From contig JAOADG010000030.1 of assembly GCA_026417415.1 (NCBI GenBank), positions 1 through 16,735 on the forward strand: a DNA stretch of 16,735 bases. The letters run 5' to 3'. Positions 1 to 16,735 of the stretch are shown here, one piece after another. The notes under the pieces were generated by a model. The model had not been told where the DNA came from and searched no databases. It saw nothing but the letters and a program-made list of their open reading frames with translations. How positions within the stretch are numbered: position 1 is the stretch's first letter; the number at the start of each line of letters is the position of its first letter. Made by a program: the position numbers and the translations under genes. This stretch comes from a bacterium (GTDB taxonomy: Bacteria; Electryoneota; JAOADG01).

Positions 1-138
1 TACTTATGCAACGCAAGATAGACAATGATGTCGCAATCCCCTAAATCGGGGTAGGCAATTGAAAGTTGGAAAAATAACCGTCTGGTATAATGATATCTCT
101 AGGTCGCAATCCCCTAAATCGGGGTAGGCAATTGAAAG
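1..138 (-). CRISPR. Left CRISPR array, leader-proximal end (two repeats)
   Basis: Two identical 36-nt repeats are seen at 30-65 and 103-138, separated by a 37-nt spacer (66-102). A partial spacer (1-29) runs off the window edge, so the array continues to the left. Read on the minus strand the repeat starts CTTTCAATTG and ends GGGGATTGCGAC. A CCCC-GATTTA-GGGG hairpin sits directly before an 8-nt ATTGCGAC tail, the geometry expected for a Cas6 product with an 8-nt 5' handle. Together with the leader on the right side this argues for leftward transcription. The subtype cannot be told from the repeat alone. Confidence 0.96.
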
Positions 139-495: not shown

Positions 496-795
496 TTAAA
501 CAATCCAATACCTTTCCGTACCGGGCGGCGTTAACCCAATCGCCAAGCCAATGGCTACCCTTTCCAACATACAGTTGGCACACAAACGAAACACATGCAC
601 ACTGTCAAGATCAGTTTCAATGATCTGAGCAATATCTTTGAGCATCTTTTGATACAATTTTTCATCTAAACGTGCTTCAAACACACTGTATTGGATCCGA
701 TCACCATACCCTTCCAAGCACTTTGCTACCTGATTTCTCCGCTTATCATCACAAATATCATAACAAATGATATAGGAAAATTCGGTTTCTGGCAT
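496..795 (-). CDS. cas2: CRISPR-associated endonuclease Cas2
   Basis: This 99-aa protein has the usual length and ferredoxin-like pattern of Cas2. The N-terminal strand FSYIICYDICDDKRR carries the conserved Asp (D13) followed by D/K/R. The middle has QYSVFEARLDE, and the HVFRLCANC strand precedes the C-terminal tail. Cas2 dimers bridge two Cas1 dimers in the spacer-integration complex. The ATG is preceded by AGGAG five bases upstream. The gene starts 8 bases after the cas1 stop and runs towards the left leader, so the two form one operon. No interference genes follow; the downstream neighbour is the CRISPR leader itself. Confidence 0.95.
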   Translation of the reverse strand: MPETEFSYIICYDICDDKRRNQVAKCLEGYGDRIQYSVFEARLDEKLYQKMLKDIAQIIETDLDSVHVFRLCANCMLERVAIGLAIGLTPPGTERYWIV

Positions 796-803
796 CGCAT
801 CTC

Positions 804-1847
804 CTAACTTGCACCAAAATAATAAGGTGAATACGGTTGCTGATGAAGTAATGCTGTTGCCAACTGCTGTACCTGACGTTCAACCAATTTCATCACTTCC
901 AAAGATTCGTTTTCCGCAACACGGATCGGTTTTGCTAAAAAATTTTCCCATTCCGCAAAAAACAATTTTCTTTTTTTCTCTTGGAGGCGAACGCCACCAT
1001 AACGGTCTTCGTCTTCTTCAAAATCATTTTTGGTAAATACACGCAGGTTGCACATCCGCATCACAAATCGGTCCACAATCGGATGGCGAAACTCTTCCAA
1101 TAGATCCAACGCCAACGATGGCCGATTGGGACGAATCTCATGAAAAAATCCACACTCCGCATCAAATCCACGCGCTTCCAACAACCCTTCAATCTTGGCA
1201 GTCAGCAATACATAAGCCAACGAAAGCAAAGCGTTGGCAGGATCCGTGGGTGGACGTTGTGAACGCTCTGTAAAAGTGATGTCCCCTTTGAAAGAACGTG
1301 CCAAAGCGCGAAAATAAGTCGCAGCCGCTACCCCTTCAAATCCACGCACCTGCTCAATGGTCTGCGTCTGCTCAATCCGTTTCTGATAGTGGTCAATGGA
1401 TTGGATGGCTTGTGTGTACACCCCTTCCGCCGTATCATTAGAGCGGAGTTGTTCCAACACGGTCTTGGCATTCTGCAGTTTGGCATGCACCACACGTTTA
1501 GAATGCTGTAAACAACGCTCCGTATCCAACGCCAAGGCAAATTGCTTCATCCGCAATTCTATGGTACCCAGACCAGACGGAACATAACGCCCTAAAAACG
1601 TCCCGCCTTTAGAAAAGTAGTACACTCCGATCTTGCGCTCAAATAAGGCATGGATTGCGTCAGTAGTGACCGTGATTTTCCCAAAAAGGTAGATCTGGTC
1701 AATCTTATGAAGTTCCACTTCCAACAATTTTTCACGCACCATCCCTAATGGACCACTACCATCCGGATCGGTATCTTTGGTAATCAAAATACTTTCACCA
1801 GTCAAACGGATCACGGAACCCGTTTGGTTTACGTAAAGGGTTGACAA
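804..1847 (-). CDS. cas1: CRISPR-associated integrase Cas1
   Basis: Cas1 is the metal-dependent integrase that inserts new spacers at the leader-repeat junction. The chosen TTG start gives 347 aa beginning MSTLYVNQTGSVIRLTGE, which matches how Cas1 proteins usually begin, and AGGAGG lies four bases upstream. A longer in-frame reading from a TTG at 1886 adds 13 residues but has no ribosome site. The three expected metal ligands are visible: E171 in GFEGVAAATYF, H236 in GFFHEIRPNRPS and E251 in LALDLLEEFR. RPPTDPANALLSLAY is the typical segment before the His. The sequence resembles Cas1 of type I-C/type III-like systems, but I would not assign a subtype. There is no fused reverse transcriptase or Cas4. 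It is followed by cas2 after 8 bases. Confidence 0.95.
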   Translation of the reverse strand: MSTLYVNQTGSVIRLTGESILITKDTDPDGSGPLGMVREKLLEVELHKIDQIYLFGKITVTTDAIHALFERKIGVYYFSKGGTFLGRYVPSGLGTIELRMKQFALALDTERCLQHSKRVVHAKLQNAKTVLEQLRSNDTAEGVYTQAIQSIDHYQKRIEQTQTIEQVRGFEGVAAATYFRALARSFKGDITFTERSQRPPTDPANALLSLAYVLLTAKIEGLLEARGFDAECGFFHEIRPNRPSLALDLLEEFRHPIVDRFVMRMCNLRVFTKNDFEEDEDRYGGVRLQEKKRKLFFAEWENFLAKPIRVAENESLEVMKLVERQVQQLATALLHQQPYSPYYFGAS

Positions 1848-1851
1848 TAGG

Positions 1852-1857
1852 CCTCCT
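1852..1857 (-). promoter_or_regulatory. Ribosome binding site that decides the cas1 start
   Basis: Read on the minus strand this is AGGAGG, four bases before the TTG at 1847. The alternative upstream TTG at 1886 has no comparable site. Confidence 0.6.
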
Positions 1858-1911
1858 AAACTGTTCTCTAAATCATAAATATACAATCAAACAAGTTGTT
1901 CTACAATAGAA

Positions 1912-2062: not shown

Positions 2063-2428
2063 TTAGGGATCAATCAATTCCAATAACAACATCACCGCCA
2101 CATCCGAGTTGGGCGTTACCCCTGTGATGGTGACAGAGGTGTCGCTTTCGTTGACGCGTACCACCAAGGTATAGTTGGGTGCGTTGTACACTGCTTTCAC
2201 CGAAATGCGGTCCCCCGTCTGGATAGGTTTTGCACTCTCAACCTGATAGGTACGGCTACCATCAAAAGCAATCATCTTTTTGATGGTGCCCGCAAGTGGG
2301 ATGGGAACACCAAAGTTAGACAACTGCCCCACCGAATAGAGTTGGACAGTGGTGGTGCTTAAAGTCCGACCAAAATTCAGAACTACGCGATTCTTTTTGG
2401 TAAAGAGGTAACATTCGTTTGTTTTCAT
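2063..2428 (-). CDS. Small beta-rich protein, possibly phage structural
   Basis: This 121-aa protein has no signal peptide or membrane segment. It is predicted by eye to be mostly beta strand: alternating hydrophobic stretches such as VQLYSVGQL, RTYQVESAKPIQTGDRISVKAVY, VVRVNE and VAVMLLLELID. The GTIKKMIAFDGS turn and the GVTPNSDVAVMLLLELIDP end resemble small head-decoration or tail-fibre-type proteins of phages, but I cannot name a family. AAGGAA precedes the ATG. It is divergent from the VOC gene, with only 34 bases between the two start codons. The other virus-like genes downstream on the same strand raise the chance that it is phage-derived. The function remains unknown. Confidence 0.7.
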   Translation of the reverse strand: MKTNECYLFTKKNRVVLNFGRTLSTTTVQLYSVGQLSNFGVPIPLAGTIKKMIAFDGSRTYQVESAKPIQTGDRISVKAVYNAPNYTLVVRVNESDTSVTITGVTPNSDVAVMLLLELIDP

Positions 2429-2873: not shown

Positions 2874-3244
2874 ATCTCCACGTAGAATTGCGTACCACAG
2901 ATTTAGCGGCAACCGGAAAATTCTTACAAGAGTGTTTGCATTGGGTGGTAGAATCGTGGGAGTGGCAAGGTGAAACCTACCTTTTGTTCAAAGATCGGTA
3001 CGATAACCCCGTGATCGGAGGCGATGTAGAAGCGGTTAGCACACTCCCAGAAGTTCCAACCTGTGTGGTATACTGTCCTTGCGAAAACATAGAACAAACC
3101 GTGGATGCTGCTCTCAAGCACGGTGCTACCATTTTTAGGCCTATTATGAACGTTGGGGATTATGGATTAAAAATTGTTATTCTGAAACTTCCCGGTGGTT
3201 GTCATCTCGGTTTCTGGTGGTCGCCGAAACAAGATCAGTCCTAA
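2870..3244 (+). CDS. VOC-family protein, copy 2
   Basis: The protein is 124 aa from the ATG at 2870, which has GGGAGG a few bases upstream; an in-frame ATG at 2828 lies inside the preceding gene and is less likely. The layout repeats that of copy 1: MNLHVELRTTDLAATGKFLQ, a central TCVVYCPCENIEQTVDAALKHGA and a closing LPGGCHLGFWW strand. VOC domains pair to build an active site, so the two coupled products may form a heterodimer; this is inference. The TAA stop overlaps the stop of the convergent protease-like gene by four bases. These two genes are the only intact plus-strand genes in the window. Confidence 0.85.
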   Translation: MNLHVELRTTDLAATGKFLQECLHWVVESWEWQGETYLLFKDRYDNPVIGGDVEAVSTLPEVPTCVVYCPCENIEQTVDAALKHGATIFRPIMNVGDYGLKIVILKLPGGCHLGFWWSPKQDQS

Positions 3245-4035
3245 CCGTTCGCCGTCTCCCGAAAGGTGTCAATAGGCGTAGAATCTACTCCATCCGAATA
3301 CTCTACCAATTTCCAAACTTTTTTGTTCCATTTCACAAGTAGCATTTGGTTTGGGGTTTGTGGTGAGGATGGGGGGAGTGATGAAGGGAGTTGGTTGGGT
3401 AAAAATGCTGTAAAAGGTTCAGCCCCGCGATAGACCAACGAACCCTCTAACACGCTTTCAATGCCGTCGTACCAATAGTGGCAAAGCACACCGTCGTACC
3501 ACTCCCCAACTTGGTGCTGACAAAGCCGCAAATCGCGTTCGCAAAGGTTGCAAGTCGCTTGCTGGAACACAAATGCGATGCTGGCTTCGGTCACCAAACC
3601 GCCATCAATTTCCAATCTTAAATCTTCTGCACGGGAGTGATCTTTCAACCAATACAACTTGGGAACAATGTATTCGTACTCCCCTAACTGTTCAATGTTT
3701 CCTCCAAAAAAGCGTGCAATGGCAATGCTTTGATGGTTATGACCGATCAGAGCCGGTGCCCCTTGCACCAATTTCAACAATAAAGGGAGATCTTGCTTGC
3801 GAAAACAGCCACCTTTTTGGTCCACAGCAGTACCTGCTAAGCGGCAGCGTCGGACGTAGAGATCCTCCACCGTCAGTGGCACCAAGGGCGGATTTGGCAA
3901 AGCATATATGGTGGCTAAGTCCTCTTCACTGGCACACCCCTTTTCCAGACAACAGGTCGCAAAATCTTTGGTAGCATCAAGAGGGGGTAACGTGGGTCTT
4001 GGTACAAACGTACCTTGTAAAATTTGGTAATGCAT
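3241..4035 (-). CDS. Phage prohead-protease-like protein with Cys/His cluster
   Basis: The protein is 264 aa from an ATG with GGAGG four bases upstream; the longer open frame to 4164 has no such site. The core from about residue 96 to 206 resembles HK97-type (U35) head-maturation proteases. H99 in LIGHNHQS and S152 in GGLVTEASIAFVF are at plausible catalytic positions, and LEGSLVYRGAEP closes the fold. Between them lies C162-x2-C165, C172-x-H174, a probable zinc site seen in some phage protease relatives. Head proteases cleave the scaffold and capsid precursor during virion assembly. No capsid or portal gene is adjacent: the neighbours are VOC proteins and a fluoride-export operon. The family call rests on motif memory, so moderate confidence. 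Confidence 0.65.
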   Translation of the reverse strand: MHYQILQGTFVPRPTLPPLDATKDFATCCLEKGCASEEDLATIYALPNPPLVPLTVEDLYVRRCRLAGTAVDQKGGCFRKQDLPLLLKLVQGAPALIGHNHQSIAIARFFGGNIEQLGEYEYIVPKLYWLKDHSRAEDLRLEIDGGLVTEASIAFVFQQATCNLCERDLRLCQHQVGEWYDGVLCHYWYDGIESVLEGSLVYRGAEPFTAFLPNQLPSSLPPSSPQTPNQMLLVKWNKKVWKLVEYSDGVDSTPIDTFRETANG

Positions 4036-4097
4036 CAATCCTCCAATTCCTTCATTTAGGATGGTTACAAAAGTAGAAAAAAAGTGAATTAGTGATC

Positions 4098-4454
4098 TTA
4101 AGACGATTTGCTTTGGGAGTAGTGGATAATATGGGCGCGCTCTTCGGTAATCATCGCCCCACAACCACTCTCTTCAATCAATTTGCGGACGATGGGGATA
4201 AACGCTTCAATTTTGGGAGCAGTATCCACCAGTTCAATCACAATGGGGAGATCTTCAGATAATCGTAAAATTTTTGAGATGTGGATGGTACGGCTATTAG
4301 CACCAAAACCAGCAATCCCACGCAAAACGGTAGCGCCTGCCATACCTTGTTTTCTGGCTTCTAAAACGATGGCTTCAAAGAGGGTGTTCCGTTGGTGCCG
4401 ATCCGATTCTCCGATAAAGATACGCAACAGTTTTCCTTCGCCTTCTAATACCAT
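4098..4454 (-). CDS. DUF190 family protein (CrcB-associated, PII-like)
   Basis: The 118-aa protein matches the DUF190 family. EGKLLRIFIGESDRH opens the fold, followed by EARKQGMAGATVLRGIAGFGANSRTIH, the signature segment, then RLSEDLPIVIELVDTAPKIEAFIP and a C-terminal VRKLIEESGCGAMIT. These small soluble proteins have a ferredoxin-like PII-type fold and are commonly encoded with crcB fluoride channels; their biochemical role is not settled. The ATG has AGGAG six bases upstream and begins 9 bases after the crcB stop, so the pair is one operon. Confidence 0.88.
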   Translation of the reverse strand: MVLEGEGKLLRIFIGESDRHQRNTLFEAIVLEARKQGMAGATVLRGIAGFGANSRTIHISKILRLSEDLPIVIELVDTAPKIEAFIPIVRKLIEESGCGAMITEERAHIIHYSQSKSS

Positions 4455-4463
4455 AAGGAACTC

Positions 4464-4838
4464 CTAAAATAGTTTTCCCAGCACCATTCCCAAATAGGTC
4501 GCTACCAAACAGAATATCAGGTTCAAAACAACATTGGCAAGGGCTTGCAGATATTCCATCTCTCGAATCATCAGTACCGTTTCGTAACTAAAGGTAGAAA
4601 ATGTGGTAAAGCCGCTTAAAATACCGGTGGTCAAAAAGATTCGCAGCTGCGGTGGGATGTACACGCGATCTAACGCCAATACCATAATGAAACCAATCCA
4701 AAAAGAACCCATCACGTTGACCAACAGCGTCCCAAAAGGAAAAGAAGGGGGTAGCCAGCGATAGACCATCCCACCCATCCCATAACGTAGGATAGCCCCC
4801 AAGCCACCCCCAATAAACACCCATAAGGTCTGTTTCAT
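4464..4838 (-). CDS. crcB: Fluoride ion channel CrcB/Fluc
   Basis: The 124-aa inner-membrane protein has four hydrophobic segments, the length of a single-domain Fluc subunit that works as an antiparallel dimer to expel fluoride. Motifs seen are GGGLGAILRY near the start, PFGTLLVNVMGSFWIGF (residues 34-50, with the conserved Asn41 of the ion track) and GFTTFSTFS (77-85), which carries the phenylalanine/threonine box and sodium-site loop. ATG at 4838 was chosen; a TTG one codon earlier is also possible. The ribosome site is weak. It is followed by the DUF190 gene. No fluoride riboswitch could be recognised in the 70 bases upstream. Confidence 0.93.
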   Translation of the reverse strand: MKQTLWVFIGGGLGAILRYGMGGMVYRWLPPSFPFGTLLVNVMGSFWIGFIMVLALDRVYIPPQLRIFLTTGILSGFTTFSTFSYETVLMIREMEYLQALANVVLNLIFCLVATYLGMVLGKLF

Positions 4839-4907
4839 CAATGCGCTCGGTTGTCTTGAATGAACCTTATCCTACCCGACACCGCATTTTAAGAGTCGGC
4901 ATAGGGT

Positions 4908-6563
4908 TTAGTTCCACAAACGCATCACCATCGTACGTTGCCAATCTTCCGCACGTATCCCAAAGGTTTGTTTGAACGTCGCATCGGTCATCCCCGGCAG
5001 CAATCCATTGATGGTGGGATTAGGCAATATCCATTCTTGGAAATTTTGGGCTTGCCAGGTAATTACCGGCTGCCAACGAGTACGCCAGATCTCCCGATAA
5101 AACACTTCAAAATTGATGCCGTTGTACCAATTCCCTTGCTGTTGATAGTTGGGATAGAGCCATAGCCGCAAGCGTGCGAAAGGATAATTCCGTTGCCGAT
5201 ACTCGGCAACCTTACGGTTCCAAATGGTATCTAACTCCGGAAAATTGTAAGAATAGTTCAAAAACTCTTGAGTGATGGTCCCATATTCCATTTCAGCCAC
5301 ATGCTCCCAATAATGGTTACCCGCAAAGGGAAAATGAACCACTTGGGATAAGTTTTCGTAACGGTTTTCTTCCGCATACACCACCCCGGTATCTAAAGAA
5401 ACGGTATAGGGTGGAAGTAGCCCCTTCAAATTTTGTACCGCATTGTGAAACATTTGCCGCATAGAAATTTCTAAATTGACCTCGGGGGTAGAATCGTTCC
5501 CATCTGCATCCATCATAAAGCGTTCTGAGGTGGTAAAAGCGCGCCGTATCTTTGGTAGATACGCTTTCAAGGTATCCAAATCCTGTCTGGTAATCCCATC
5601 GTTGGGGTCAATTTTAATCAAATGACGACTTTGGTTTCCAGTTTCCGCTTCCAAATGGGTGATGGCGCGATCCAACGCATCAATGGCGTTTAACCAACAA
5701 TCCCCTGCTGTTGCCATATGCTGAGCCCCTTGGGAGCGCAATGCCAAAAAGGGTGAACTTTGGGTCACCGCATTCCGCAACCCATTGCCGGTATAATCTT
5801 CAAAGGATAAATCATAAGCACACCAATGCAACACTTGGGCTTTGAGTACATTCAAAGCAGAAAGGGTAGCGTTGATTTCTGTTAAATCCAAATAAACTTC
5901 ATCTTCCCACGGATCCCCTTGCATCCGAGCCGTGACCACAAAGGTAAACGACGGCTGGTTCGCTACAAACTGAAGATGATCAATAGCACTGGAAAGACGT
6001 GGAACCAAATGGCTAAGCAAAAAATCTTGGGCATCCCGAATGCTGGGGTTGACCGTCATCACCCGATTCCCATCGGTCAAGGTCTTTAAGATGGTTAAAG
6101 GACTCATAAACGGAAGTGCCAATTCTGTACCCGAGAAAACTGGCCGAGACAACGGTGGTTCGCGGGTAAACAGACCCGGTAAATTGATTTCAAAGATGCT
6201 ATCCCGCTCAATAAAATTTTTCCAATCATCAAAAATTTGTTGCATTGAATTTTCGCGAGACAACATTAAAATTTCCAACAACCCGACACCAAAGTGTGCT
6301 GTTGGGTTAAGAGTATCCAGTTGGAGTGCTTCGCGGTAGAGGTTGTAAGGGACAGTAAAGTTGAGGTCCATCGGGTCTTGCGGTTCTGGACCGTTGATAA
6401 GCGTGTAGAGTACCTCTTCCAAAGCCGTGTTGGCTGCGTTAACTTTGGCGGCTGCAGCAGTAGAATCGCGGATAGGACCTGTGGGCTTTTGATCCGCTTC
6501 CTCTTTTTCACAACCATAGAGAAAGAAAAAAACGAGGGTTAAAAGAGCAATCAACTTTTTCAT
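4908..6563 (-). CDS. Large lipoprotein with N-terminal TPR-like segment, unknown function
   Basis: The protein is 551 aa. MKKLIALLTLVFFFLYGC is a lipoprotein signal with the acceptor Cys at residue 18, so the mature protein should be anchored in an envelope membrane. An acidic linker (EKEEADQKP) follows. Residues ~60-110 contain a TPR-like pair (YREALQLDTLNPTAHFGVGLLEIL). The rest is soluble and helical, with acidic DPNDG and DADGNDSTPEVN stretches and a C-terminal part rich in Trp, Tyr and Asn. No catalytic motif was recognised. The start was fixed by AAAGGAG before the ATG and by the signal peptide; an in-frame start 15 codons upstream would spoil the signal. A promoter-like TTTG/TATATTTG pair lies ~85 bases upstream. 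Confidence 0.85.
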   Translation of the reverse strand: MKKLIALLTLVFFFLYGCEKEEADQKPTGPIRDSTAAAAKVNAANTALEEVLYTLINGPEPQDPMDLNFTVPYNLYREALQLDTLNPTAHFGVGLLEILMLSRENSMQQIFDDWKNFIERDSIFEINLPGLFTREPPLSRPVFSGTELALPFMSPLTILKTLTDGNRVMTVNPSIRDAQDFLLSHLVPRLSSAIDHLQFVANQPSFTFVVTARMQGDPWEDEVYLDLTEINATLSALNVLKAQVLHWCAYDLSFEDYTGNGLRNAVTQSSPFLALRSQGAQHMATAGDCWLNAIDALDRAITHLEAETGNQSRHLIKIDPNDGITRQDLDTLKAYLPKIRRAFTTSERFMMDADGNDSTPEVNLEISMRQMFHNAVQNLKGLLPPYTVSLDTGVVYAEENRYENLSQVVHFPFAGNHYWEHVAEMEYGTITQEFLNYSYNFPELDTIWNRKVAEYRQRNYPFARLRLWLYPNYQQQGNWYNGINFEVFYREIWRTRWQPVITWQAQNFQEWILPNPTINGLLPGMTDATFKQTFGIRAEDWQRTMVMRLWN

Positions 6564-6643
6564 CGTAAACTCCTTTCCTATCTTTGCACTCAGTTTCAAA
6601 ACATCCAACCAAACTCAATGGTTTAGTGAAACTGAAGCAACTT

Positions 6644-6675
6644 CAAATATAGTACATCGTTTTCTCAAAAGCAAA
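6644..6675 (-). promoter_or_regulatory. Bacteroidota-type promoter for the lipoprotein gene
   Basis: On the minus strand TTTG (6675-6672) is followed after 20 bases by TATATTTG (6651-6644), an exact fit to the TTTG...TAnnTTTG promoter of Bacteroidota and relatives. It lies about 80 bases before the lipoprotein ATG in a 233-base gap that holds no gene. Confidence 0.4.
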
Positions 6676-6796
6676 TCGTTTTCCCATTTAACTGGGTAAA
6701 AATGAAAATTTTTTCTTGCTTACCTCGCCTTATCTTTACCTATAATTGTTTTGATTTTCGTCGGAAGGTTGCTTTTTTGCTTCCTATGGAACCCTA

Positions 6797-7804
6797 TTAG
6801 GTGTATCGTGCTAAGGTCTCTTTGAGCACCTTGACCATCCACTCCCGAAAATGTTGGGGTTCCAGCACTTCCACATATTTTTGCCATCGCATTATCCAAG
6901 CCACCAGTTCGTCGGTAAGTTGGACACGGAAGGTCAGTTTGACGGTGTTGTCATTTTCTTTGGTGATCATTTGGCTGGGGTGCCACATCCGCTCTGCGAT
7001 TACCTGCGCTACCGGTGGATAAAAGCGCATGGTTACATCCGAAACCAATTTGCTGTTGTGTCCTAAAATACCGAAACGATCGTTTAGAATCTGCTGGAGT
7101 TTGAAATTAGGGTTGCGCTTAAAGGTTTGTGAGGGGAGCAGTTCCACTTCTTCCATTCTATGGAATGGGAGCGTCAAATAGCGTTCTTGGAGAACATCCC
7201 AAACGATAGCATAAAGTGCTTCACGGAAGAGCAAGATTCCATACGGTTCAGCCAAATAGCGGTTTACTGATTGTTGCGTGGGTTTTTTGTAAACGATATG
7301 GATGCGGATACTTCGTTTGACTGCTTCTGTGAAGTTCCGAATCTGTTTGGTAAAAGGTCTTAAATCCACACGTCCATTTTGAGCGATGTAAAAGGTGTCA
7401 TTCAACGAATTTTGACGCGGATCAATCACTTCAATAGGAAACAGTTCTTTCATTCTATCCCGCAGCTGCTCTACCCCTTCTGCCCAAGGGGTATATTCTA
7501 CGATCTTTGCCAACTCATCCAACAACAGCACGGCAGCAATTTCGTCGTCGCACAACAGTTTCGGAAAATAATCACGAAAATGCGGTGCCAGTTTCCAAGT
7601 AAGTTCACGACCATTTTCATACACACTTTCCAATGGTATATTTGCCATTGACAGACGGACCATATCGCGCTCTAAGGTGCGGCGAGAGACCTTTCTGTCA
7701 AAAAGATAATACAACTGGTTAATGGTTGCTTTGCGATTGGTACATAAAAACCGCAAAATCCGTAAACAACGTTCCAATACTTGGGTTTCGGTTCGTGAAT
7801 TCAT
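6797..7804 (-). CDS. WYL-domain transcriptional regulator
   Basis: The 335-aa protein has the usual three-part layout of WYL regulators. A winged helix-turn-helix lies at about 8-70 (LERCLRILRFLCTNRKATINQLYYLF, VSRRTLERDMVRL). A WYL domain lies at about 163-228 (AEPYGILLFREALYAIVWDV...YLTLPFHRMEEVELL), and a C-terminal WCX-like domain at about 255-332 (DVTMRFYPPVAQVIAERMW ... WIMRWQKYVEVLEP). The name-giving W-Y-L is degenerate here (LYA), though the Arg/His-rich ligand face is partly kept. Such proteins sense nucleic acids or nucleotides and often control CRISPR or other defence genes. GAGG sits four bases before the ATG. It is a single-gene unit with its own promoter-like sequence; its target is unknown. 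Confidence 0.88.
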   Translation of the reverse strand: MNSRTETQVLERCLRILRFLCTNRKATINQLYYLFDRKVSRRTLERDMVRLSMANIPLESVYENGRELTWKLAPHFRDYFPKLLCDDEIAAVLLLDELAKIVEYTPWAEGVEQLRDRMKELFPIEVIDPRQNSLNDTFYIAQNGRVDLRPFTKQIRNFTEAVKRSIRIHIVYKKPTQQSVNRYLAEPYGILLFREALYAIVWDVLQERYLTLPFHRMEEVELLPSQTFKRNPNFKLQQILNDRFGILGHNSKLVSDVTMRFYPPVAQVIAERMWHPSQMITKENDNTVKLTFRVQLTDELVAWIMRWQKYVEVLEPQHFREWMVKVLKETLARYT

Positions 7805-7830
7805 ATCACCTCAAAATGAATTAAAATAGA

Positions 7831-7860
7831 AAATTACAAAAAAAAGATATCCATTGTCAA
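7831..7860 (-). promoter_or_regulatory. Sigma-70-like promoter of the WYL regulator gene
   Basis: On the minus strand TTGACA (7860-7855) and TAATTT (7836-7831) are 18 bases apart and end about 26 bases before the ATG. The -35 box is perfect and the -10 is moderate. Confidence 0.4.
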
Positions 7861-7884
7861 CTCTTTTCAAATTGTCATCATTTT

Positions 7885-8097
7885 TCTTTAAGACCTTTTG
7901 AATCCACATTAAAACTGTTCTTAGAAAACGATGGTATTCAAAGAATAGATTTAGAAAAAATTGTTATTCCGAATTCTAAGATAATCAATGGGGAAGATTT
8001 ATCATATTCTCAAAAATTCTTCAGTTTTATTCAAAACGCTCCTAAAAAGGTTTACTATTTGGATAAAACTATAGGAATCGGTTTAACTTATCTTTGA
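7885..8097 (+). pseudogene. 3' remnant of an unidentified gene
   Basis: The frame starting with codons at 7885 reads as coherent protein for about 70 codons: SLRPFESTLKLFLENDG, then QRIDLEKIVIPNS, then FFSFIQNAPKKVYYLDKTIG and a TGA at 8095. There is no ATG and no plausible start; the frame opens after a TAA at 7822 within the WYL promoter region. Composition is AT-rich and lysine/isoleucine-rich, unlike the flanking portal gene. It looks like the C-terminal tail of a gene whose 5' part was deleted. The last 29 bases overlap the 3' end of the convergent portal-like gene. The family was not recognised. Confidence 0.55.
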
Positions 8098-9397
8098 CCT
8101 CCTCTTTGTGGATATACCCTTTGGCTTCCAATTCCAATAAGGTCTTGACTTTTAGCGAAAATGCTTGCTCGCGGGGCAGTGCAAAGGGGTCTGCGTGCGG
8201 TTCATAGCGATGTTCCACGGTACAAGGGTTGCCTCGTAACGCCAGTTCTATATTTGCCAAACGGTCTGCCAGCTGCAATCCTCGCAGTTGTAAAGATCGC
8301 ACAATATGCATCAACAAATTGTACTGGGCCTCTACCCAATTTTTGGTGGTCCCGTGGCTACGGCCGAGCACCCAAGGAAACAGTTTTAGTCCAGTAATCA
8401 CATCTTCCATCACTTCTTGCCGATGGATGCGCCACTGGGCACGCATTCCACCATCCCCGCCAATGACCGTCACTTCCACATCGCTCCACGTAAAGAGATG
8501 ATCGTCAGCTTCCAAACGTGAAAACCCTTGAACGGTATCATCAAAGTATCTGGAAGCACGCAGTTCGTAATCTTCCGCAGATTCGGACGGGTCACGTGGA
8601 GGTGGTGTGATTTTGATTTGCAATCGGGGTGTCCCAGCGTGCTTCGCACTTCGTGCCATATCTTCCAACAGTTGTGTTTCTATGGCCAAAACGAATGGGA
8701 GTGTTGCCAACGGCTCTATTCCAGACGGATTAGACGGATCGTGAGTCAACACCGCATAGAAAAACCGATCAGGTGGGACCGGAATTAGATATCGTTCATT
8801 TTGCAGCCAATACTTTTCGTTTTGAGGGCCGAAACGCACGCGGTATGGATCCAGAAAATGAATGCGGTCAATCCCACTTAAATCGGGATATGGGACGATC
8901 TCCACCGCACAACGTCCTAAGGTAAAAAGTTCCAGAAACAGAGCTTCGGTCAGTCGCTCTAAAGCACGTTTGCCGGGGTACGGTTCAAGTTTTTGCTCAA
9001 ACTGGTCTAAGATCTGATTGGCAGACGGTTTGGCATACTCGGGACCACTAATCACCCGTTCTAACGGCGTAGCACACAGATGCACCCACGACCAAATCCC
9101 AGCAGAAACAATGGGAATGCGATCACGCAGATAACGAAAAAAGGCGGCACGCTGGTGCGTATCATACTGTAAAAAAGCGTGTTGATAGGGTGAAAACACT
9201 GTTTGAAAGAAAGTCGTGGTCCCTTGAAAAAAAGGGGGTGGCGTAGGGTTTAAGGAAGGTGGATCCAAAGCAGGTGGATCGTTCGGTTGTTGGGCTAAAT
9301 GCCGTTCATACAACTGTACAAAAGTGGAATAAACCGAAGGTTGTGGCCGTCTTGGTTTGCTCAATAGCCGAAACGGCGGTTGAACCGTAGAATTCAT
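8069..9397 (-). CDS. Phage portal-like protein
   Basis: The protein is 442 aa, a normal size for a portal. A proline-rich N-terminus (residues 35-56) leads into helices with IPIVSAGIWSWVHLCATP and then EALFLELFTLGRCAVEIVPY and DLSGIDRIHFLDPYRVRF (about 150-189), the characteristic portal core in which a strand pair follows the 'G-x-A-v-E-i' segment. A clip-like beta region (YLIPVPPDRFFYAV) and a long helical C-terminal half (ETQLLEDMARSAKHAGTP, WVEAQYNLLMHIVRS) follow. Portals form the dodecameric DNA gate of the virion head. GGAG precedes the ATG by five bases. No terminase or capsid gene is nearby; the upstream neighbours on the same strand are lysis genes. The reading frame is intact. Confidence 0.75.
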   Translation of the reverse strand: MNSTVQPPFRLLSKPRRPQPSVYSTFVQLYERHLAQQPNDPPALDPPSLNPTPPPFFQGTTTFFQTVFSPYQHAFLQYDTHQRAAFFRYLRDRIPIVSAGIWSWVHLCATPLERVISGPEYAKPSANQILDQFEQKLEPYPGKRALERLTEALFLELFTLGRCAVEIVPYPDLSGIDRIHFLDPYRVRFGPQNEKYWLQNERYLIPVPPDRFFYAVLTHDPSNPSGIEPLATLPFVLAIETQLLEDMARSAKHAGTPRLQIKITPPPRDPSESAEDYELRASRYFDDTVQGFSRLEADDHLFTWSDVEVTVIGGDGGMRAQWRIHRQEVMEDVITGLKLFPWVLGRSHGTTKNWVEAQYNLLMHIVRSLQLRGLQLADRLANIELALRGNPCTVEHRYEPHADPFALPREQAFSLKVKTLLELEAKGYIHKEEVKDKLNRFL

Positions 9398-9542
9398 AAT
9401 ATCTCCTTTGAGAAAACGTATCCTAATCCTCTAAGTTGAGTAGGGAGTTTACTTCCTTTTCATCTCTTAGGGGAATTTGAAATTAAAAAATGTCTTCAGC
9501 GTTGTTCTCAATGCACTCAGATTTTCTTAGGTTTTCACGTTT

Positions 9543-9764
9543 CTAAAACAGCATATTTGAACGGTTGCGCGAGGGCTTTTCTTTTAGCACCTGAACTATG
9601 TCCACCGCAGATTGCCCCAAGAGGTAACTGGATAAAATCACCATAATCGCTTCAACCATCTCTTTTGCCGCCTCGGGAGTAAGCCCTAAGTACTGAATAA
9701 ACACGGTGGTAAGCAATCCTGCTAAGGTCATAAGAAGTTTTCGTGAAAGCCATTTTTTCCACAT
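9543..9764 (-). CDS. Holin-like small membrane protein
   Basis: The 73-aa protein has a charged N-terminus (MWKKWLSRK), a hydrophobic segment LLMTLAGLLTTVFIQYLGL, a short TPEAAKEM loop and a second hydrophobic stretch AIMVILSSYLLGQSAVDIV, ending in a basic tail. The LxLTPEAAxxxV...YLLGQSAVDI pattern is common in small phage proteins encoded beside endolysins and taken as holins. GGAG lies eight bases before the ATG. Two genes upstream on the same strand is a peptidoglycan amidase, which supports a lysis role. Pore formation itself is inferred. Confidence 0.65.
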   Translation of the reverse strand: MWKKWLSRKLLMTLAGLLTTVFIQYLGLTPEAAKEMVEAIMVILSSYLLGQSAVDIVQVLKEKPSRNRSNMLF

Positions 9765-9843
9765 ATGGGGAACTCCTTTCTTGTGTAAGTAAATTTTGGG
9801 AAGAATTGGGGTTTTGAATGCAGTTAGAAATCCGATTCGGAAG

Positions 9844-10128
9844 TCATTTTCCGAACCACGTGATTACTGCGACCATAAACCCAAACAACGCGGTAGTGGA
9901 CAAGTAGCGGATGGTCAAACGCCGCTCCAATAAAGCGTGTAGGGTCTCCAGTTGACGAATGGTTTGAGCGATGATCATTTGACTGCGGCGATCACTTTCT
10001 GCCGGATGTAGGGCTTGCAAAATGGCGCGCTGTTCGGATAACAAATCTGTTTCCATCGCCAATATGCGCTCCAAGCGTTCGGCAATCGTCGCTAACTGTT
10101 CACTAATGTGATACAATTCATTGGACAT
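9844..10128 (-). CDS. Coiled-coil protein with C-terminal membrane anchor (lysis-associated?)
   Basis: The 94-aa protein is helical with heptad-like spacing through ISEQLATIAERLERILAMETDLLSE and IAQTIRQLETLHALLERR, followed by a single C-terminal membrane segment (YLSTTALFGFMVAVITWFG). This layout recalls XhlA-type proteins that accompany holin and amidase in phage lysis cassettes, but no signature motif was seen. It lies between the amidase (52 bases upstream) and the holin-like gene (79 bases downstream). The ribosome site is weak. Confidence 0.65.
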   Translation of the reverse strand: MSNELYHISEQLATIAERLERILAMETDLLSEQRAILQALHPAESDRRSQMIIAQTIRQLETLHALLERRLTIRYLSTTALFGFMVAVITWFGK

Positions 10129-10180
10129 AAATCAACCTTTTCCATCTGTTTACAAAGTAGGATTAGCCAAAAATACGGTC

Positions 10181-10636
10181 TTACCGTGCCTTGAACGCTA
10201 CCCCCCACTCTTTTCGCAGCGTGTCCATATCCAACAGTGGACAGCGTTTATATGGCTGAAATTCGTAGTGGCCATAAAGGGACGCTTGGGGATAGCGGGG
10301 GAGCAATTGATCCACTATCAATATACGGGCTGCATCCAATTGGGCTTTTGGATACTCCCCTTTTCCAATCAAACAGACCCCGATACTGTGGGTATTGAAC
10401 CCTTGACAATGCGCCCCGATTTCCGTTTCTGCACGGCCGATCTCTATAGCACCAAGCGGTGCATCGGGCTTTTGGGTTTGATACGCTGATAAAGTGCGAT
10501 ACCCATTCAGCACCACATAATGATACCCAATGCACTGAAACCCGCGCGCTTGATGCCAACGATCAATCAGTGCAGCATCACCAAAATGCGAATCCGAACA
10601 ATGTAAAATAATAAAATGAATGTCTCTGTATAGCAT
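10181..10636 (-). CDS. N-acetylmuramoyl-L-alanine amidase (T7 lysozyme/PGRP family)
   Basis: The 151-aa single-domain enzyme cuts the bond between N-acetylmuramic acid and the peptide stem of peptidoglycan. The zinc ligands of the Amidase_2 fold are in place: H12 (FIILHCSDS), H123 (YGHYEFQP) and C132 (KRCPLLD). Catalytic partners Y38 (CIGYHYVV) and K130 (K-x-C, as in T7 lysozyme) are also present, and NTHSIGVCLIG is the typical core strand. There is no signal peptide or cell-wall binding domain, so export would depend on the neighbouring holin-like protein. It has a phage-endolysin size. The ATG lacks a clear Shine-Dalgarno site. The gene's upstream region is a remnant of a restriction-modification gene. 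Confidence 0.92.
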   Translation of the reverse strand: MLYRDIHFIILHCSDSHFGDAALIDRWHQARGFQCIGYHYVVLNGYRTLSAYQTQKPDAPLGAIEIGRAETEIGAHCQGFNTHSIGVCLIGKGEYPKAQLDAARILIVDQLLPRYPQASLYGHYEFQPYKRCPLLDMDTLRKEWGVAFKAR

Positions 10637-10676
10637 GATTTTACTTTGTTAAATTGAAAAAAAGCGTTGGAGTTAA

Positions 10677-10865
10677 TGGAATGAGATCTGGAACTTTACC
10701 ATTGGTGGGTACCAAGTGTGTCAAAAGTGGTTAAAAGATAGAAAGGGTGAAACATTATCTTTTGAAGATATTCAACATTATCAAAACATCGTTTCTGTGG
10801 TGCAAGAAACGTTGCGTATCATGCAAGAAATAGATGGTGTTACGAAGGACTTTTTTACTAAGTAG
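10677..10865 (+). pseudogene. 3' remnant of a type ISP-like restriction-modification gene
   Basis: A plus-strand frame of 62 codons opens after a TAA at 10674 and ends with TAG at 10863. It reads WNFTIGGYQVCQKWLKDRKG, then TLSFEDIQHYQNIV and ETLRIMQEID. The segments IGGYQVCxKWLKDRKG and L-S-x-x-D-I-x-H-Y-Q are the well-conserved extreme C-terminus of type ISP-like restriction enzyme/N6-adenine methylase fusions. No start codon or ribosome site is present and the rest of the ~1000-aa protein is missing, so this is a dead tail. Its last 8 bases overlap the end of the convergent histidine kinase gene. It implies that an R-M gene once occupied this site. Confidence 0.75.
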
Positions 10866-13641
10866 GAACCTCCTTATTGTTTTGACTTACGATTTGCTGA
10901 ATTTTTTGGATCAATTCGCTTATCGTGAACGGCTTGTTGATTAAGTAAACGTTTTCATGTTTTAATTTTTCATAGTCCATATCGGAGGTATAACCGGACA
11001 TCAAGAGGATCGGGATTTGGCTAAACCGTTTCTTCACCTCTCTGTACAGTTCTAAGCCCCCCATCACCGGCATCACAATATCTGACAAAATAAAATGGGG
11101 ATAATCCTCTGGTTTCAGGGTGTCTAACCATTGTAAAAGTTGCTCACCATTGTGGAAAAGTTTTACTCTACAACCTAAATTAGTTAGCGATTTAAACAGT
11201 AAATTCCGAATAAATTCTTCATCTTCGGCAATGGCTATGGTTTTTTGTACTTCTGATGAACCTTTCAATTCCACTTTTTTCATCTGTTCGCTTTCTATTT
11301 CTATTGCAAGCGGTAGAAAGATTTTGAACGTGGTCCCTTCGTTGATGGCACTTTGAACCGAAATATACCCCCCGGCTTCATGGATAATGGATTTCACCGT
11401 AGCCAGTCCTAATCCAGTCCCTTTTCCTTCCGGTTTGGTTGTGAAAAAGGGTTCAAAAATCCGTTCCATTACTTCTTTGGACATACCCGATCCATTATCT
11501 TCTACCGAAAGCACACCATAATCACCGATAGGTATCTCTGGCGGCATTTGGGTATCAATATCCCAGTACTGCAGCAACGAGGTACGGATCATTATCCGTC
11601 CATTTTTTTTGAGTGCATCACGCGCGTTCACCACCAAGTTCATAATCACCTGCTCCAACATACTCGGATCGATATTCACATAGGGAGTATTTTCTTCACA
11701 AACCACTTGAAACTCAATATTTTCGCCGATCAACCTGCGGAGTACCTTTTGCATATTTAGCACCACTTCTTTTAAGGAGACAACTTTAGGAAGATGCGGC
11801 TGTTTTCGTACAAATGCCAACAACTGTCTCGTCAAACTGGAAGCACGTTCCACCATCGTTTTGATGGTCATCAATTCGTTGTGAGCAGGATGATCGGGTT
11901 CTAATAACATATTGATGATATCCGTGGTTCCACCAATCACGGTCAAAACATTGTTAAAATCGTGGGCTACTCCACCTGCTAACCGTCCAATTGCATCCAC
12001 TTTTGCTATTTGACGCAGTTCTTCTTCGTAACTCTTGCGATCGGTAATATCGTGGAAGATCCCTAACAACACGTTATCCTCGCGATAAGGGACATAAGTC
12101 AAAGACACTTCTACATAACGGTCAATCTTTTTTTTGGTGTGGACCTTCATTTCAAACTGTTGTTTTTGCAAAGAAGGGTTTGATAGCAACTGTTCTGCAT
12201 ATTGTTGAAAGGTTTGGCGAAACGGCTCTGCAATCAGTTCATAAAAATCAAATTCTAAAGATTCGATTTCTAAGCGGGTCAATCCAAACAATTCTAAAAA
12301 GCGTGTATTTACAAATATTAAACGATTCTCATGAAGTAAAAACACAGAATCATGGGATAATTCCACCAACATACGATATTGCTCTTCACTATTCTTTAGT
12401 TCATCTTCCAATCGCATTTGTTCCGTTATATCAATGCATACCCCATAAATTAACCCTTCTTTTGGAAAAGCAAATGCCGACCATTTGAGGTAGCGGTAAT
12501 CCCCATCTACAGTAAGGTATCGGTTTACAAAATTGTTGATTTCTTGACCCTCACGCAATTGCTGGAATACATCTATGGTTTTTTGGTGATCCGAAGGGTG
12601 AACAAAATCAATCCACGGACGCTCTAAGAATTCTTCAATTTTCCAACCCAACATTCTTTTCCAAGCATTATTGATCTGCTTGAAATACCCACGAAAATCG
12701 GCAATGCACATAGGGATTTCCGAGAGTTCAAAAATGCGATTGCGTTCCAGCAATACACGTTCCGCTTCGCGTTGTTTACGTAGTGTAGATAAAGAAAAAC
12801 CAACATCGTGTGCCAGTTCCATTAAAAGGTATTTTTCATCTTCATCATAAGGGTAGAATTCACAGGTAAATAAATTAAGGACACCCAGCACCTCAGTGCC
12901 ACCAATGAGTGGCAATGAAACCAAGCAGATGGGTTTGGTAGAATATTGCTCGGAAGACACTTCACCTAAAAATAGGGTCCGATTGAGATTCGGAATAAAA
13001 ATGGGAACTTTTTCTTGAAACACACGATACAGTGGGTTGTTAGGCAGATTAGGATTGAGTAGTTTTTTCAACAATTCTTGTTCTGAAGTGATACCGGCTT
13101 GTGCCACAATTTCTAATTCTTCCGGACAATTCTGTTTTGGTAACACAATCCAAGCAATTACGTAACTGCCTTCTTGAGTGAGTAAAAGGGTGATTTTTTG
13201 AAATAACTCTTGTTCCGTTTGCGTACGAATAATGATTTGGTTGACCGAACTTAATAAGCGTAAGTTGCGATTGACACGTTTAAGACGCTCTTGCAACTTC
13301 AGCAAATGGGTCACATCGTGGATCATCACCAATCGTGCTTTTCTATCTTGATACTCAATGGAATGGGCTGTAACCTCCACATAGATGGTGTCCCCCTTTT
13401 GGGTCAGATGACGCCAAATTGTGGTATCACTTAGACCCTCTTCAAGTTGTTTCAAATCTTGATCTAATTTTGGAATATCCTCTGGAGGACGAATATCACG
13501 AATGGTAAGTTGAAGAAACTCTTCTCGAGTCCAACCATATTTTCGTACGGCAGCATCATTTACATCTAAAATCTTTAACGTTTCATTATCAAAAACCCAC
13601 ATAGGGACGGGGCTGTGGTGGAAATACACGATATTTTCCAT
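10858..13641 (-). CDS. Hybrid sensor histidine kinase (PAS-GAF-PAS-PAS-HisKA-HATPase-REC)
   Basis: The protein is 927 aa from the ATG at 13641; a TTG at 13677 would add 12 residues but has its AGG only three bases away. Domain order: PAS ~1-118, GAF ~135-290, PAS ~295-410, PAS ~418-538, HisKA with phosphoacceptor H560 in GRLAGGVAHDFNNVLTVIGG, and HATPase with N-box N668/N672, EDNGSG (714-719), FEPFFTTK (729-736) and GKGTGLGL (739-746). A receiver domain (~800-920) has E806/D807, phospho-acceptor D854, S882 and K903. There is no membrane segment or DNA-binding domain, so it is a cytosolic phosphorelay hub needing a partner phosphotransferase or regulator, none of which is in the window. The H-box resembles the CckA group of hybrid kinases. 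It is encoded between phage-like genes. Confidence 0.94.
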   Translation of the reverse strand: MENIVYFHHSPVPMWVFDNETLKILDVNDAAVRKYGWTREEFLQLTIRDIRPPEDIPKLDQDLKQLEEGLSDTTIWRHLTQKGDTIYVEVTAHSIEYQDRKARLVMIHDVTHLLKLQERLKRVNRNLRLLSSVNQIIIRTQTEQELFQKITLLLTQEGSYVIAWIVLPKQNCPEELEIVAQAGITSEQELLKKLLNPNLPNNPLYRVFQEKVPIFIPNLNRTLFLGEVSSEQYSTKPICLVSLPLIGGTEVLGVLNLFTCEFYPYDEDEKYLLMELAHDVGFSLSTLRKQREAERVLLERNRIFELSEIPMCIADFRGYFKQINNAWKRMLGWKIEEFLERPWIDFVHPSDHQKTIDVFQQLREGQEINNFVNRYLTVDGDYRYLKWSAFAFPKEGLIYGVCIDITEQMRLEDELKNSEEQYRMLVELSHDSVFLLHENRLIFVNTRFLELFGLTRLEIESLEFDFYELIAEPFRQTFQQYAEQLLSNPSLQKQQFEMKVHTKKKIDRYVEVSLTYVPYREDNVLLGIFHDITDRKSYEEELRQIAKVDAIGRLAGGVAHDFNNVLTVIGGTTDIINMLLEPDHPAHNELMTIKTMVERASSLTRQLLAFVRKQPHLPKVVSLKEVVLNMQKVLRRLIGENIEFQVVCEENTPYVNIDPSMLEQVIMNLVVNARDALKKNGRIMIRTSLLQYWDIDTQMPPEIPIGDYGVLSVEDNGSGMSKEVMERIFEPFFTTKPEGKGTGLGLATVKSIIHEAGGYISVQSAINEGTTFKIFLPLAIEIESEQMKKVELKGSSEVQKTIAIAEDEEFIRNLLFKSLTNLGCRVKLFHNGEQLLQWLDTLKPEDYPHFILSDIVMPVMGGLELYREVKKRFSQIPILLMSGYTSDMDYEKLKHENVYLINKPFTISELIQKIQQIVSQNNKEVPT

Positions 13642-13725
13642 AACTTGATCCGATGTAAAGATGCTTGATTGTAACAACCTTTATAGCAAAATACAAGTTG
13701 AATAGTAAAAAATTTAAATTAAGTA

Positions 13726-13741
13726 GGTGATGCACATCACA
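13726..13741. promoter_or_regulatory. CRP/FNR-family-like dyad upstream of the kinase gene
   Basis: GGTGA-N6-TCACA matches nine of the ten half-site bases of the CRP-type TGTGA-N6-TCACA operator. It sits ~85 bases before the kinase ATG, beyond the end of the upstream connector gene. A TATAAA lies nearer the start. No CRP-family gene is in the window, so binding is speculative. Confidence 0.3.
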
Positions 13742-13783
13742 CGATAATCGTATGTTGGTTTGATATACTTCTGGATATCGTTT

Positions 13784-14605
13784 TTATCCTACCCTTGCCC
13801 CTCGCCTTTCGGGTACACGGAGGTACGGTTGTAACAACTTCCACGCTTCCAAAAAGTAGCGATCGGATAGTTGCAGCCACTGTTTAGAGCGATCATCGGC
13901 TGCTGTATCTTTTCCATACTGCAACGGCCTAGCAGCCAGCGCCAAAGCGGCTAATCCTGCAGCCAACAAGGTCGCCCCTTCTTTGAGCATGGGTTCGTGC
14001 TGGTTGGGTGGGATAGGGTCACTTAGACGGCTTTCAATCATTTGGATGGCTGCAGCAACGGTCTCTTCTAACAGCGCATCTTCAATATGCACCTCTGCCA
14101 AATCATAATCCATCAATACAAAGGATGGATCTTGAATTTTGCTATTCCCACGCCGCCGTATTGCGCTTCCATCACTTGACCATTCGTAATCTGTTTCATG
14201 AGAATACACTTGGGCTTGGGAATAGATCAGGTACACGCTGCTGTTATCCGCAATGGAAGAACCATGGGCGCGTTTGATACGACCATTATCATAATCCACT
14301 ACATAATCTATCCCCTCGGTGTAAATGATGTCCATCCGCTCACTTTCACAAACAGAGACACTTCCATATGCCAGTTTGCTGCCATCAAACATACTCCATT
14401 GCGTACCGTTCAGGACCACGCTCACGGCGGTGGGGAGGATAGCGTTTTCACTATACACCAGTTCATTGGCAGGGATAGCTGCTCGCGTCGGCAGATAACT
14501 CCAATCTAATCCTTGCAAAAGAAGAGGGATCTGATACACCCGTTGGGAGGGAATGGGCGATCCCAATAAATGAAGACGCAACGCAGTCACATCGGTGAAA
14601 CTCAT
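13784..14605 (-). CDS. Phage head-tail connector/head-completion-like protein
   Basis: The 273-aa protein begins with MSFTDVTALRLHLLG, the short helix typical of head-tail connector (gp6/gp15-like) proteins. It then has a beta-rich middle with YTEGIDYVVDYDNGRIKRAHGS and VYLIYSQAQVYS, and a helical end rich in Ala and Leu (LLEETVAAAIQMIESRL, EGATLLAAGLAALALAA, KQWLQLSDRYFLEAWKLLQPYL). The 'G.DYvvDy.nGrIkr' phrase is common in phage neck and structural proteins. There is no signal peptide. AAAGGGA lies ahead of the ATG. It stands alone between the kinase and the ARPP-1 gene, far from the portal. The exact virion role is not certain. Confidence 0.6.
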   Translation of the reverse strand: MSFTDVTALRLHLLGSPIPSQRVYQIPLLLQGLDWSYLPTRAAIPANELVYSENAILPTAVSVVLNGTQWSMFDGSKLAYGSVSVCESERMDIIYTEGIDYVVDYDNGRIKRAHGSSIADNSSVYLIYSQAQVYSHETDYEWSSDGSAIRRRGNSKIQDPSFVLMDYDLAEVHIEDALLEETVAAAIQMIESRLSDPIPPNQHEPMLKEGATLLAAGLAALALAARPLQYGKDTAADDRSKQWLQLSDRYFLEAWKLLQPYLRVPERRGARVG

Positions 14606-16612: not shown

Positions 16613-16648
16613 CTTTCAATTGCCTACCCCGATTTAGGGGATTGCGAC
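16419..16648. repeat. Right arm of 230-bp inverted repeat (leader + CRISPR repeat)
   Basis: This is the reverse-complement partner of 103-332, ungapped with three mismatches (16516, 16582 and 16592). It ends at the outer edge of the first repeat of the right array. Confidence 0.95.
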
Positions 16649-16735
16649 AAGGATAGTAGGTGATTTCTTGATGTTAATGTTTAATAACTTTCAATTGCCT
16701 ACCCCGATTTAGGGGATTGCGACAAAGCGTGATAT
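16613..16735 (+). CRISPR. Right CRISPR array, leader-proximal end (two repeats)
   Basis: Two copies of the 36-nt repeat at 16613-16648 and 16688-16723 are identical to those of the left array in inverted orientation. They flank a 39-nt spacer (16649-16687). A second spacer starts at 16724 and runs off the window. The spacer differs from those of the left array, so the two arrays acquire spacers separately. Leader position and hairpin-plus-handle geometry indicate rightward transcription. Confidence 0.96.

Follow-up and report, generated by a model that had tools for sequence, protein, structure and literature searches.

A putative gene transfer agent of virus origin, inherited vertically in the bacterial phylum Electryoneota

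The analysed window, a stretch of 16,735 nucleotides from an Electryoneota genome (G000), contains seven phage-type genes on the minus strand, all intact, with cellular genes between them. The question raised by this locus is whether such genes are the debris of a prophage or the parts of a maintained particle system. The initial annotation of the window proposed a domesticated virus or gene transfer agent (GTA) with dispersed genes, and most of the tests that it suggested gave results favourable to a maintained, GTA-like system. Domestication of these genes and their vertical inheritance are considered close to certain. It is also considered probable, on balance, that they form one vertically inherited head-packaging-lysis module representing a GTA of a new lineage.

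Virus-type genes of the window

Every open reading frame named in the initial annotation was found where it had been placed, on the minus strand and uninterrupted. Its portal and amidase assignments were confirmed by profile matches and its holin-like assignment by a weak one; the prohead-protease-like gene was supported by a profile match together with invariant His and Ser motifs (Table 1). Neighbouring genes in the window were cas1/cas2, a DUF190 gene, a lipoprotein gene, a WYL regulator, a hybrid kinase and an ARPP-1 gene and, by reading of the sequence, two glyoxalase-like genes and a CrcB-like fluoride exporter.

Table 1. Features of the window and related genes elsewhere in the same genome
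Feature	Position	Strand	Evidence
CRISPR array	30-138		36-nt repeat
cas1/cas2	496-1886		beside CRISPR array
121-aa jelly-roll protein	2063-2428	-	homologues in cluster of most relatives; AF2 beta sandwich
Head maturation protease, 264 aa	3241-4035	-	PHROG 16951, E 2e-14; start MHYQ... agrees with homologues
Portal protein, 442 aa	8069-9397	-	PHROG 3753 "portal", E 8e-30
Holin-like small membrane protein, 73 aa	9543-9764	-	PHROG 9987 holin, weak, E 8e-5
Coiled coil with C-terminal membrane helix, 94 aa, putatively XhlA-like	9844-10128	-	build and position
N-acetylmuramoyl-L-alanine amidase (endolysin), 151 aa	10181-10636	-	PHROG 822, E 1e-29; Pfam Amidase_2, E 5e-11
Head-tail adaptor/connector with inserted Ig-like beta domain, 273 aa	13784-14605	-	AF2 model against PDB
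CRISPR array	16613-16725		same 36-nt repeat, opposite direction
Major capsid protein (MCP)	G000:C18:9379-10446		PHROG 3922, E 5e-48
Large terminase (TerL)	G000:C36:17397-18710		PHROG 2, E 3e-28
XRE regulator	G000:C38:236279-236704		E 9e-35; conserved C-terminal motif

The PHROG family matched by the protease has no assigned function. In an alignment from 14 genomes the His of LxGH and the Ser of E-A-S-[IL]-[AG]-F were invariant, and these would be the His and Ser expected of a head protease. Behind the catalytic Ser, residues 162-174 contain an invariant C-x2-C ... C-x-H cluster; this is possibly a zinc knuckle, which would be unusual for a head protease.

The AF2 model of the adaptor (pLDDT 82) was compared with the PDB and resembled phage neck proteins, namely T4 gp13 (Z 8.7), the cyanophage A4 neck (Z 8.5) and Carin 1 (Z 7.7) as well as those of SU10 and phi812, with an overall range of Z 7.5 to 8.7. 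The inserted domain was similar to tail-tube/Ig domains. The connector-like assignment was upheld, though the window copy, like the 121-aa protein, had no significant match of its own to PHROG or Pfam; adaptor homologues in relatives matched PHROG 807 and 18315. The 121-aa protein was modelled as a confident beta sandwich (pLDDT 88). Its best PDB matches were weak (Z 4-6), with several viral surface proteins among unrelated ones, and naming its function from the fold was rejected on that account. It lies between capsid and adaptor in relatives, so that the gene first listed as a doubtful member does belong to the set, and it may be a surface, turret or decoration protein.

The lysis genes comprise an amidase, replaced by a different wall hydrolase in some genomes, and small membrane proteins. 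The place of the holin-like gene is taken in other genomes by an unrelated small membrane protein. No family match was obtained for the XhlA-like protein in PHROG or Pfam, and proteins of similar build precede the lysin in relatives. PDB sequence searches with the capsid, portal, protease and adaptor profiles returned nothing meaningful.

Gene order and the remainder of the set

MCP and TerL were each found once in the window's own genome, each on a contig other than the window and on two contigs in all, in agreement with the expectation of single-copy terminase and capsid genes lying apart. Neither portal nor capsid nor TerL occurred a second time in this genome. A cement-like protein is encoded upstream of the capsid gene on C18, preceded by a helical 128-aa protein which, by position, could be a scaffold. 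The TerL motifs KSRQM, WDEMAF (Walker B), DxGY, DPAG and DHxxDALRY were invariant or nearly so; the nuclease aspartates sit in the last three, and both ATPase and nuclease motifs are intact. With their catalytic residues kept, the module proteins look functional as judged from sequence.

In relatives (Electryoneota/AABM5-125-24) the same genes form one cluster of fixed order: scaffold-like, cement, capsid, 121-aa protein, adaptor, (TerS), TerL, portal and protease. The adaptor directly precedes TerL, and protease and portal adjoin in most relatives. The protease is followed by at least one signal-peptide protein, a LamG-type protein, a TM-coiled-coil protein, a small membrane protein and, as the last gene, the amidase or another lysin. 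Nine genomes had several module genes per contig, mostly interrupted by cellular genes, and here strand and the order capsid > TerL > portal > protease were kept over 6-54 kb. The conserved synteny that had been proposed as a check was thus found in separated sets as well, and the window's lineage can accordingly be placed at a later stage of the same loosening. The scatter is best read as an "exploded" operon, an ancestral cluster pulled apart by cellular genes, so that tightly clustered and exploded states of the module can be compared as a natural series.

A CRISPR array lies at each end of the window, the two being built on one 36-nt repeat that runs in opposite directions; the capsid contig (L086) starts with this repeat as well. 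Because their ends lie in the same repeat, the window and capsid contigs may adjoin; the two may be side by side and the separation local rather than genome-wide. Of the dispersal originally described, separation by cellular genes was borne out, and genome-wide scatter was not. Spacers of the flanking arrays had no 16-mer in common with the loci examined outside the window.

The absence of integrase and tail neighbours noted in the window was extended to 65 unassigned ORFs in or next to the clusters (14 loci), none of which belonged to a tail, integrase or replication family. The tape-measure family PF10145 was absent from the window's own genome and patchy in the phylum (9/39 genomes). The earlier description as a particle system accordingly stands for head, neck and lysis genes, and not for a tail gene, none being found in the module, so that the genes recognised do not account for how DNA would enter other cells. 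TerS-like ORFs of 75-103 aa without HTH, assigned by position and motif only, precede TerL in several families. An HTH was present in TerS of the LCP-89 group, and no TerS was recognised in two families. By these assignments, the DNA-binding domain is lacking from the small terminase, or the protein itself is absent, in most lineages.

In the LCP-89 family the capsid cluster is preceded upstream by an XRE regulator gene paired with a gene for an M78 (ImmA/IrrE-like) peptidase (L063:4899-5949, L062, L066, L075), and this pair is likely the on-switch of the module. The XRE copy of the window's genome lies away from the capsid contigs. Members of the XRE family were also present in the capsid-less genomes G013 and G036; the family is therefore not exclusive to the module, its co-loss is unsupported and its use as a module marker was rejected.

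Inheritance and selection within the phylum

Among 39 Electryoneota genomes 33 had the portal, 34 had MCP and about 33 had TerL, generally in one copy, giving a single-copy share of about 85% for each. G013 and G036 were without all three. This conservation of the set over the phylum is far above chance. A profile search of genome contigs with the capsid alignment returned 27 loci; the corresponding search with the portal only returned nothing. Named records with the same capsid family were "Candidatus Electryonea clarkiae", AABM5.125.24, LCP-89 and "Candidatus Hatepunaea". Two further records, L061 and L064, are titled "Caldithrix abyssi DSM 13497" and "Candidatus Puniceispirillum"; their contigs match Electryoneota genomes and are probably mislabelled. 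The start of contig L179 (G026:C184) encodes FFFFNDTATTEIYTLSLHDALPI, a translated Illumina adapter, and is an assembly contamination.

A module tree was calculated from concatenated capsid, TerL, portal, adaptor and protease of 28 genomes; as reference served a tree of four gene families (1051 columns) from the region of the ribosomal protein operon. The two trees had 22/25 splits in common, compared with a maximum of 3 after label shuffling, and distances were correlated with a Mantel r of 0.91 (0/2000 permutations). Trees of single module genes also agreed with the ribosomal-operon tree. The capsid protein evolved at 0.68x the rate of the ribosomal-operon set and was among the slowest-evolving parts tested.

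Between near relatives dN/dS was 0.09-0.11 for MCP, 0.09-0.25 for portal, 0.10-0.29 for protease and, where dS was not saturated, 0.06-0.23 for TerL. Values for the adaptor and the 121-aa protein were higher. The sole broken core gene seen in the phylum was the capsid gene of G023 (L097:10098-11153), which has an internal TGA that could be a sequencing error. Purifying selection, with dN/dS well below 1 and about 0.1 for capsid, portal and protease, was as predicted for maintained genes, and apart from that single stop the core genes of the relatives gave no sign of the relaxed selection or frameshifts that had been named as counter-evidence. A decaying prophage was ruled out by single-copy presence, congruent trees and low dN/dS. 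Vertical inheritance over the whole phylum goes beyond what had been claimed for the window.

Proposed function and relation to known systems

The capsid, cement, portal, protease, adaptor, TerL and lysis genes are established at the gene level, and from these we infer packaging and delivery of DNA. Single-copy retention and inheritance like that of core genes make it probable that the module is a virus tamed very long ago that packages the DNA of its own cell. A single capture of a virus module would have preceded the diversification of the phylum, with vertical inheritance ever since. Under control of the XRE regulator (with the M78 peptidase in one family) a few cells would switch the module on. 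Protease and capsid would form a procapsid, which TerL would fill through the portal with host DNA; packaging would occur without choice of site, given a TerS that is absent or has probably shed its DNA-binding domain. The adaptor would close the neck of the filled head, and holin, XhlA-like protein and amidase would burst the cell. The released particles would carry chromosomal pieces to other cells and so constitute a GTA, of a lineage unrelated to the Rhodobacter type. Traits by which a GTA is recognised were found, namely host-encoded phage head and packaging genes, vertical inheritance, purifying selection, lysis genes and, among the 65 unassigned module ORFs, no integration or replication genes of its own. 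Against the GTA reading stand the HTH-bearing TerS that persists in one family, the lack of a recognised tail in the module, the XRE regulator in two capsid-less genomes and the stop in the G023 capsid gene.

Whether the particle injects DNA or only protects or releases it depends on the tail. A domesticated capsid with another use, in which particles with host DNA are released by lysis and do not inject, is rather unlikely but forms the main competitor; such particles could supply extracellular DNA or matrix, serve in stress export or kill like PBSX. The missing tail in the module, the absence of the tape-measure family from the window's own genome and the signal-peptide and LamG proteins encoded between protease and lysin are all in its favour. 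The conserved neck adaptor is, however, of the tail-holding kind, and tail genes could sit at a separate locus, as several loci are often used by GTAs (PMC11841831).

The phage origin of all the proteins would be accounted for by an ordinary prophage, or by related phages that infected repeatedly and independently, with partial scrambling by assembly or rearrangement. Distant free gut phages (MT835508, MT835769) do have homologous MCP (about 29% identity to the copy of the window's genome), protease, portal and TerL; unlike the genes studied here, these form one contiguous block in the usual phage order, and in trees of portal and capsid the phages branch outside the chromosomal clade. Single-copy presence in nearly all genomes of the phylum, the missing integrase and replication genes and low dN/dS make this explanation very improbable, and for the phylum as a whole it is refuted by congruence of the module and ribosomal trees. 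An encapsulin-like compartment, derived from a capsid and storing cargo other than DNA, is equally improbable. The slow evolution of the capsid protein would suit it. An encapsulin has a HK97-type shell and needs neither portal nor terminase, whereas here the portal and a TerL with intact ATPase and nuclease motifs are conserved and inherited together with the shell.

The favoured GTA reading was compared with known systems. RcGTA and its alphaproteobacterial relatives also retain phage-derived head, portal, protease, terminase and lysis genes over the long term, at several loci, and have a TerS without DNA-binding domain (PMC6854486, PMC11841831), as may be the case in several families here; the absence of this domain from the Rhodobacter GTA was tied by the authors to random packaging (PMC6854486). 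The module differs in its order of capsid before terminase before portal, in its lack of recognised tail genes and in its unrelated host phyla. PF04860 (Phage_portal, Caulobacter/Rhodobacter type) had no match in the window's own genome and did match the control, Caulobacter vibrioides, and membership of the RcGTA-like family was rejected. FpGTA of Faecalibacterium likewise represents GTA-like particles outside the Alphaproteobacteria, with capsids that showed no identifiable tails and with structural and lysis genes split between two operons (PMC12946183). Compared by description, FpGTA is confined to one gut genus and the module extends over a whole phylum and beyond. VSH-1 of Brachyspira has tail genes and, also by description, is limited to one genus. 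It resembles the module as a GTA with a divided gene set (Stanton et al. 2009, cited in PMC11841831).

Outside the Alphaproteobacteria, the GTAs known so far occur as isolated cases; a 2024 review raises the question whether such distant GTAs are exceptions or widespread within their clades (PMC11841831). Nothing in the literature searched linked GTAs to these phyla, and a paper using the phylum name Electryoneota/AABM5-125-24 mentions neither phages nor GTAs (PMC10439189). On the best reading, what is new is a GTA-like lineage that is not of RcGTA type, is fixed in whole phyla and has an exploded gene order and no recognised tail. If host DNA is packaged, gene exchange by tamed viruses would be an ancestral trait of whole phyla.

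Beyond Electryoneota, the portal profile was found in one copy in 112/132 genomes of the phylum of G194, in 12/14 genomes of the phylum of G181 (capsid 13/14) and in 3/3 of the phylum of G066. Portals of the G181 type were surrounded by housekeeping genes. In portal and capsid trees the copies of the G181 and G194 phyla were each monophyletic. Electryoneota were monophyletic in the capsid tree and nearly so in the portal tree, in which three genomes of other families were nested with weak support; their sister group, at full support, was the G194 phylum, and free gut phages branched outside. The capsid genes form a separate lineage that is near core in one phylum, and their relatives are almost as widespread in at least one other large phylum. 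Capture before the split of these phyla is plausible. Tentatively, the taming of a head-only and possibly tailless DNA-packaging and lysis system could predate the divergence of two or more phyla, namely Electryoneota, that of G194 and perhaps that of G181. If so, it would be older and more widely fixed than any other tamed virus known in bacteria, and it would release or transfer host DNA in a manner unlike known GTAs.

IMG/VR matches (L106-L110) were short contigs with the same genes and order; listed as viral, they are probably chromosomal fragments. Two head proteases outside Electryoneota (L111:6765-8960, L246:12249-14060) carried a long C-terminal extension, for a total of 603-731 aa.
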